Part shown: positions 1,406 through 2,669 of the stretch, one piece after another
Layout: each line of letters starts with the position of its first letter
How positions within the stretch are numbered: the first letter of the stretch is position 1
From: Oscillospiraceae bacterium
GTDB taxonomy: Bacteria; Bacillota; Clostridia; Oscillospirales; Acutalibacteraceae
Assembly (NCBI GenBank): GCA_015065425.1
Contig: SVQH01000023.1
Coordinates: forward strand, 13,858-48,612
Length of the DNA: 34,755 bases
Direction of reading: 5' to 3'
Position numbers and translations under genes: made by a program
Notes under the pieces: model-generated
What the model was told of the DNA's origin: nothing
What the model saw: the letters and a program-made list of their open reading frames with translations, nothing else
Databases searched by the model: none

Positions 1406-1457
1406 AGGAGAAGCGGAGCCCGTTTCTTCTTGTGTACGGGTTCCATGAAAATTTATG
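1406..1457 (+). promoter_or_regulatory. Hairpin between a Shine-Dalgarno-like AGGAG and the downstream start codon
   Basis: AGGAG at 1406-1410 lies 44 nt before the ATG at 1455, and no good ribosome binding site lies closer. Between them, GGAGCCCGT (1415-1423) can pair with ACGGGTTCC (1436-1444), nine pairs with one G-U and a 12-nt pyrimidine-rich loop. Folding would shorten the effective spacing to about 14 nt. The pairing is seen in the sequence; a role in translation start is inferred. Confidence 0.35.
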
Positions 1458-2669
1458 AAAAAAATCAAAAAGCTGACCGCAGCTGTCCTTTCAGTTATCA
1501 TTTTTGTGCTTTCGTTTACCGTAATCAGTTTCGCAGATGAGTTTTCTGCAGGTGACATTGACTTCGACGGAAGTATATCTTCCTCCGATGCAAGATATGC
1601 ATTAAGATATGCTGTTTCACTTGAGTATTATACGAAAGCACACTTGAAAGTCGGAGATATTGACGGAGATTCCATACTCAGTGCAAATGATGCACGGGCT
1701 ATTCTCCGTGCGGCGGTAGGACTTGATGCACTTCCTTCTCAGCCGATTGCATTGACTTTATCCGATTACAGAGAATATGTGAACTGTCCCAAAGATTATA
1801 TCTTTAACTGGGATGTTCCCGATGCTCCCGAAATCAATGCTTCTTCGGGTACTTTTACATTTACCGTTTACGGCTACGGTCACGGAGTCGGACTTTCTCA
1901 GTACGGTGCTTTGTCAATGGAAGACGCAGGGTATACTTATGATGAGATTCTGTCTCATTATTACACGGGAACCGAAATAAAAAAAGCTTCAGAAATTCCG
2001 TCACTTACATATTACCCCACGACGGGTTATATTGACACCGAACAGCTTCTTGCAAGAATTGTATATCAGGAGATATACGGTGTTACGCAGTACGGGAAAT
2101 ATAAAGAGAGTCTCAAAGCCATGGCTTTGTGTATTTTTACACTTCTCATGCGTGAGAATTTCTATGTTTCCAATAAGTGGGATGTGGGTATATGTTCATC
2201 TGTAGGGTATTATAATCTTCCTTACAATCTCAGAGAGGTTGTTCATGAGATTTTCGGAGAGTATATCACCGTAATAGGACAGACCTATCCTATTATGTCC
2301 GTATACAGTGGTCTTGCCGCAGGGATGACGGCAGCATCTGCAAGTGTATGGGGCGGTGACCTTTCATATCTTCAGCCTGTGGAAAGTCCCTTTGATATGC
2401 AGCGTCCCGGTTTTATTACATTTGAAACCTATACTGTAAATCAGATGTATAATCTTATAAAATCTTACGACAGCAGTATAGTTCTTTCCGATAATCCTGC
2501 CGAGTGGCTGGAAATAATCGAGCATACAGCTTCAATGGATGAAAACAGAGGTTATGTTACCAAAATAAGAGTCGGAAACAAGCTTCTCACGGGTAACAAT
2601 CAGTTCCAGACGGGACTTATGAAAAACGCATTCAATTCATCCTGTTTTACAGTTACATATACACCGTAG
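1455..2669 (+). CDS. Secreted dockerin-like plus SpoIID/LytB-like protein (permuted order)
   Basis: 404 residues. Residues 1-27 are a signal peptide (KKIKK, hydrophobic core, SFA|DE). Residues 32-92 hold two dockerin-type calcium-loop repeats ([14 protein letters not shown] and [14 protein letters not shown], each followed by R.aLR.AV). The rest is SpoIID/LytB-like, the family of peptidoglycan lytic transglycosylases that act on denuded glycan. The [13 protein letters not shown] motif and the EILSHYYTG segment normally end this domain, but here they come first (about residues 140-175). The segment with the likely catalytic Glu (IVYQEIYG...SLKAMAL), then [17 protein letters not shown] and finally [10 protein letters not shown] follow. 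Dockerins bind cohesins, so surface attachment is plausible. The start was chosen for its signal peptide. The TAG stop lies within the folE ribosome binding site region. Confidence 0.85.

Follow-up and report, generated by a model that had tools for sequence, protein, structure and literature searches.

Introduction

The closest described relatives of the protein analyzed here are enzymes of the SpoIID type. The substitution E101A abolishes the activity of C. difficile SpoIID (PMC6221140), and the SpoIID of the non-sporulating Waddlia chondrophila is both a lytic transglycosylase and a muramidase (PMC6635528). A SpoIID-like protein of C. acetobutylicum has been placed among four possible sortase substrates (PMC4877998), which is a related hint but different from the permuted SpoIID reported below. 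In the literature searched, which mostly excludes subscription papers, no permuted SpoIID is described, nor is a partnership of sortase-like proteins, CinA-like proteins and a glycan cutter.

In this study, a window of 34,755 nt from an Oscillospiraceae bacterium (GCA_015065425.1, contig SVQH01000023.1, positions 13,858–48,612 of the forward strand) was analyzed. The gene at 1455–2669 probably encodes an exported, circularly permuted glycan-strand cutter of the SpoIID/LytB type, from a non-sporulation branch that lies beside sortase-like and CinA-like genes. At the level of sequence comparison, the swapped order, the completeness of the domain, the conserved glutamate, the recurrence of the order in many genomes, the gene neighborhood and several changes of order on the tree were all established.

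The window gene and its parts

Hereafter, G000 is the window's own genome, L039 is the window locus with wider flanks, and residue numbers refer to the 404-aa protein. The features of the window are as follows.

1–60, + strand: 3′ end of the upstream sortase-like gene (L039 4374–5918), its remainder outside the window and partly masked in the source
160–1404, + strand: CinA-like protein, with a single hydrophobic segment near its C-terminus, residues 341–359 (putative profile kinship)
1455–2669, + strand: 404-aa permuted SpoIID/LytB protein carrying dockerin-like repeats (open frame, profile and phmmer matches)
1455–1535, + strand: approximate signal peptide, putative cleavage (hydropathy, hydrophobic residues 9–27)
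1542–1733, + strand: dockerin-like pair of Ca-binding loops, residues 30–93, loops 34–45 and 68–79 (regex; Pfam below cut-off)
1833–1985, + strand: block B, residues 127–177, with EILSHYYTG, usually the SpoIID C-terminus (TIGR02669, phmmer, profile)
1986–2021, + strand: linker bridging the original C- and N-termini, residues 178–189, approximate (alignment, profile)
2022–2660, + strand: block A, residues about 190–402, the catalytic core, usually first (phmmer, profile)
2070–2072, + strand: codon of E206, aligned with the catalytic E101 of C. difficile SpoIID (alignment, profile)
2643–2645, + strand: codon of C397, a residue of the strand that is now C-terminal (residue conservation)

Along the protein, a signal-like segment is followed by the dockerin-like repeats, then by block B and finally by block A. 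The GHGVGxSQ motif occupies residues 140–149, and the stretch from this motif to EILSHYYTG (140–172) lies C-terminal to the dockerin-like repeats, while YQEIYG sits in the core, after block B. The first-pass annotation had described a GHGVG block placed after a dockerin in a protein that ends in the strand normally preceding that block, and this arrangement is indeed present in ORF 1455–2669.

Swapped block order in a complete SpoIID/LytB domain

The window protein scored 94.2 bits against NCBIfam TIGR02669 (SpoIID_LytB; cut-off, 83.3) in two stretches, and residues 127–177 fell on positions 220–270 of the 270-position model, that is, on its last 51 positions. Consistently, phmmer comparison with the solved SpoIID chains 5i1t, 5txu, and 4rwr gave E-values of 9.7e-20 to 4.2e-17, and each chain was aligned in two stretches of swapped order; with 5i1t, query residues 258–387 corresponded to chain residues 146–268, and 127–176 to 278–327. 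When profile A1, made of 34 permuted proteins including that of the window, was compared with 5i1t (a chain of 330), nearly the whole domain was covered at an E-value of 3.1e-44, with A1 positions 73–285 on 5i1t 55–280 (block A) and A1 25–66 on 5i1t 286–327 (block B). The window protein had no match to the Pfam SpoIID model PF08486 at E-values up to 10, indicating that its core is diverged; among the relatives scanned, some passed the PF08486 cut-off and others missed it.

A regex for the motif found exactly one copy in 50 permuted proteins and no copy in the two others of the 52, so that the idea of long relatives carrying a canonical and a permuted domain together was rejected. Further, a single block-B match was obtained in each of 97 proteins compared, and no B-A-B double-block intermediate was seen. 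The second canonical C-terminal block, which the first-pass annotation had named as the finding that would speak against a permutation, was not found in the proteins searched.

The breakpoint separates the last strand of the core from the first strand of block B, and the new termini interrupt the turn linking the strand that ends in CFTV to the strand FTFTVYG. In canonical proteins (n = 45), the gap between the two domain hits had a median of 1 residue (range, −2 to 8), which fits a tight turn at this point. A cysteine equivalent to C397 was found in 32 of 35 permuted rows vs. 11 of 42 canonical rows.

Because the alignment is swapped along the entire domain, many genomes share this order and no duplicate block was found, the proposal that the window carries a complete, circularly permuted SpoIID/LytB domain is well supported by sequence. 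Block B precedes block A, with the old ends joined by a short linker, and the permuted fold would be expected to equal the canonical SpoIID fold.

Distribution of the permuted order

A first homologue search, from which very near genomes were possibly left out, returned one match, in Clostridiales bacterium DTU089 (L001). Using profile A1, near-full-length permuted matches were then found in the window's family, where 59 rows (E-values up to 1e-40) came from 56 of 329 sampled genomes and two of the 59 had an internal stop codon. A second family, which belongs to the same bacterial order, showed the same block order, with 16 rows in 16 of 148 sampled genomes among the matches listed (E-values up to 1e-25), two of them again with an internal stop codon. 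In the order-wide sample of 295 genomes, three near-full-length rows (G018, G000, and G388) were among the matches listed, and in the class-wide sample of 291 genomes only the window's own was; for these two samples and the second family, the matches listed represent the strong end only. Two genomes matched in the phylum-wide sample of 249 genomes at E-values up to 1e-30, the window's own and one with the canonical protein L106. As A1 was built from first-family permuted proteins plus L001, remote permuted proteins could be missed. Conservation of the order across homologues, which had been suggested as a check on the permutation, thus holds over many genomes of two families.

Catalytic residues and predicted function

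E206 was invariant in 34 of 34 aligned proteins, and in a second set its equivalent was present in 35 of 35 permuted rows, all of which also kept the histidine of GHG. Judged from this conservation and from knowledge of the family, the window enzyme should cleave the glycan strands of peptidoglycan.

The protein scored 100.7 bits against TIGR02870, the equivalog model of stage II sporulation protein D, thus remaining below the cut-off of 234.75, and the window genome encodes elsewhere both a separate canonical-order SpoIID (L073), presumed to serve sporulation, and SpoIIP. The window protein was therefore rejected as the sporulation SpoIID of its genome.

Two canonical-order proteins of one genus, L074 (7520–9808) and L088 (205–2532), have the GHG histidine replaced, and L074 lacks the catalytic glutamate as well; from their sequences, both are possibly pseudoenzymes.

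Dockerin-like repeats and cohesins

A dockerin fused to the SpoIID domain had also been proposed by the first-pass annotation. Two loops of the DxDxDGxIxxxD type are found by regex at residues 34 and 68, which agrees with it, but the protein stayed below the Pfam Dockerin_1 cut-off (17.2 vs. 22.9 bits), so that the repeats are termed dockerin-like here. Among the 14 matches to Pfam cohesin PF00963 listed for the window genome, 12 exceeded the cut-off alone and one did so with its neighbors, and about 40 stretches resembled the window dockerin at E-values up to 1. On these two grounds G000 is a cellulosome-type organism in which docking to a cohesin is possible, and delivery of the predicted enzyme to a cohesin is plausible.

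Two clear repeats were detected by regex in just 12 of 52 permuted proteins, indicating that the dockerin does not define the system. Ten of the 12 fall within the window's own clade of 13 (support 99/92 in a 70-row tree), whose other members have one repeat (two proteins) or none (L044); the two-repeat proteins outside the clade are L062 and L071, and L001 exceeded the Pfam dockerin cut-off with one regex repeat. The CinA-like gene is a separate neighbor in all 13 members of this clade, suggesting that the dockerin may replace a tether that a fused membrane segment would provide elsewhere.

A second dockerin protein (L047 7017–7934; Pfam, 38.9 bits) is encoded about 1 kb downstream of a permuted SpoIID, and similar genes occur in five loci.

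Sortase-like and CinA-like neighbors

Sortase-like genes were called with a profile made in this study, and six whole or nearly whole candidates or fusions were submitted to Pfam, of which L039 1534–2736, L050, L125, and L170 passed the Sortase cut-off. The upstream gene that reaches into the window, L039 4374–5918, matches the profile and carries a TLYTC motif at residue 312, and its first 309 codons had no Pfam match; L039 1534–2736, further upstream and outside the window, scored 35.9 bits against Pfam Sortase and has a TLSTC motif. On the same strand and within 4.5 kb upstream, sortase-like genes accompanied 45 of 52 permuted rows; for canonical order the count covered the 17 of 45 rows that have wide flanks, and 15 of these had such genes. 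A sortase operon is thus the most frequent context of the permuted genes, and its sortase-like and CinA-like members fall outside the coordinates given in the first-pass annotation. The seven permuted rows lacking one within that distance were L001, L059, L062, L064, L065, L068, and L175, and no sortase-like gene lies near the window genome's own canonical SpoIID. This neighborhood suggests that the enzyme serves sortase-dependent surface assembly.

The CinA-like gene at 160–1404 is separated from the SpoIID gene by 50 bases. Its product had no match to Pfam CinA or MoCF at E-values up to 1, and profile A2 of this upstream protein family matched the Pfam-verified CinA of L170 at an E-value of 4.3e-13 in a small ORF set, and CinA structures weakly (E-values of 0.02–0.08); the relative L051 was sub-threshold for Pfam CinA (15.7 vs. 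23.5 bits). Across the 52 permuted loci, the CinA-like part was fused in front of SpoIID in 15, encoded by the adjacent upstream gene in 15, and found in neither form in 22. Being fused in some relatives and an adjacent gene in others, the CinA-like part and the permuted SpoIID form a Rosetta-stone link in the first family. A C-proximal hydrophobic segment was present in six of 13 separate CinA-like proteins and absent from seven, which weakens a common role of these proteins as membrane tethers.

A gene cluster with a Pfam-verified cinA as its example lies near SpoIID genes in 17 of 37 loci, and one with thiI as its example in 14 of 37. In L170 2373–6761 (G751), a genuine CinA with MoCF, KH, and CinA domains shares one frame with a sortase, and a permuted SpoIID begins about 10 bp downstream. 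In L125 6154–8892 (G447), a CinA-like part and a hydrophobic segment are joined to a sortase and a canonical-order SpoIID in one protein. Downstream of the window SpoIID lie genes that we take to be folE-like and rarA-like; these are not conserved neighbors, with matches in two and one other loci, respectively.

Changes of block order among relatives

The comparison set comprised 97 proteins in which both blocks were present (permuted, 52; canonical, 45), and one further protein, truncated at a contig end, was set aside. A quick tree of the 97 rows needed five order changes, three of them forced by starred branches. A careful tree of 70 rows (47 permuted and 23 canonical; 36 rows left out by hand, so that few classical SpoIIDs remain) needed five as well, with a range of 5–5 over bootstrap trees and at least four forced by starred branches, although such counts by themselves cannot separate gain from loss. 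In this tree, the second-family permuted proteins formed a clade of eight rows (100/99) that grouped with two canonical relatives (99/90). L170, also of the second family, stood apart as a single long row near the classical SpoIIDs and is possibly a further independent permutation.

In AU tests on the 97 rows, a single clade was rejected for all 52 permuted proteins (p = 0.0013), for the 51 without L170 (p = 0.004), and for the 36 first-family rows plus L001 (p = 0.025), the p values of the sub-groups being indicative since these were picked after a tree was seen. With 77 rows, a single permuted clade was not rejected (p = 0.223 for 35 rows and 0.615 for 34 rows); that tree held just one clade-forming second-family permuted protein.

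Both orders also occur within one genus. L171 (genome G1193) is canonical, while the three other genomes of the genus among the matches listed, G087, G194, and G1250, have permuted copies. Between L171 and L061 (G194), identities were 42% in the N-terminal part, 49% in the core, and 73% in block B, the highest among seven proteins compared, and against the G1250 protein they were 39, 43, and 67%, respectively; block B of L171 was less like that of the canonical SpoIID L073 (47%). From these identities, the parts of L171 and L061 look orthologous, and order alone would differ. In a second genus, all four genomes listed (G098, G446, G1197, and G1253) were canonical; this genus is nested in a group that is mostly permuted, and the fork that decides its position is modestly supported (83/85 in the 70-row tree).

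As far as the aligned proteins tell, the block order appears to have switched several times in evolution. For the sortase-linked loci of this bacterial order, we somewhat favor repeated switching in both directions, in which, given a root at the classical SpoIIDs, three permutations and two restorations of the domain would have occurred, one of the restorations inside a single genus. If true, these loci would provide, in one enzyme, a natural series of circular permutations running forward and in reverse.

Alternative explanations

Four other readings of the locus were weighed. An origin of the swapped order in assembly or gene prediction might be suspected, as many of the sampled genomes are multi-contig drafts and four permuted rows have an internal stop, but the same order recurs in 72 sampled genomes of two families and 71 of the 75 rows among the matches listed are free of internal stops, so this artefact was rejected and its chance is negligible. 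It is unlikely, too, that a single ancient permutation explains the distribution, a reading in which canonical proteins nested in permuted groups have either reverted or been wrongly positioned in the tree. The 77-row AU tests are compatible with this, as they fail to reject one permuted clade, whereas the 97-row tests reject it in all three forms, and the clade of second-family permuted proteins groups with canonical ones.

Regarding function, the domain could be permuted and yet be a pseudoenzyme or a peptidoglycan-binding module that makes no cut. L074 and L088 illustrate that canonical-order relatives have lost key residues, but with the glutamate and the GHG histidine kept in all 35 permuted rows examined, we give this reading little credence. 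Less credible still is that block B acts in trans, completing the core of a neighboring chain in a domain-swapped oligomer such that chain order would be irrelevant; the variation of order within one genus having the same parts would be expected if order were nearly neutral, while many members have a short linker from B to A, as would likewise fit packing in cis. The preferred reading remains that of a permuted, predicted glycan-strand cutter, in which the enzyme would open the wall for the sortase-dependent display of surface proteins. In relatives, the enzyme may be tethered through fusion to a CinA-like membrane part; in the window's lineage, where the CinA-like and SpoIID genes are separate, the dockerin repeats may tether it to a cohesin protein.

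Discussion

Circular permutation is usually regarded as a rare event, and the recurrent, apparently reversible block order is the surprising part of this finding. One enzyme domain exists in both orders among related species, with the changes on well-supported branches, and so offers a case from nature in which the mechanism of permutation, its cost and the importance of order can be studied. The loci further suggest that sortase-like proteins, a CinA-like protein and a putative glycan-cutting enzyme act as partners. They also expose a gap in annotation, since models bound to one order see just parts of the permuted proteins; Pfam, for example, reports no SpoIID in the window protein.

Compared with known systems, the window protein shares all domain segments, the catalytic glutamate and the GHGVGxSQ motif with the engulfment lytic transglycosylase SpoIID of C. 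difficile (5i1t and 5txu) and with chain 4rwr. Unlike these, its segments are swapped, it carries dockerin-like repeats, it has sortase-like neighbors, and it falls under the spore_II_D cut-off. A glycan-cleaving role like that of the non-sporulation SpoIID of Waddlia chondrophila (PMC6635528) is probable for the window protein, which differs from that type in being permuted and in its other architecture and neighbors. The pair of Ca-loop repeats resembles that of ruminococcal cellulosome dockerin proteins, and the window genome has cohesins; compared with those proteins, however, the cargo is a predicted wall-acting domain, and the dockerin is below the Pfam cut-off and, by regex, missing in most permuted relatives. 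Finally, the upstream protein belongs to a family whose profile matches the Pfam-verified CinA of L170, but, unlike CinA, the product of 160–1404 has no Pfam CinA match, contains a hydrophobic segment and is fused to SpoIID in relatives.
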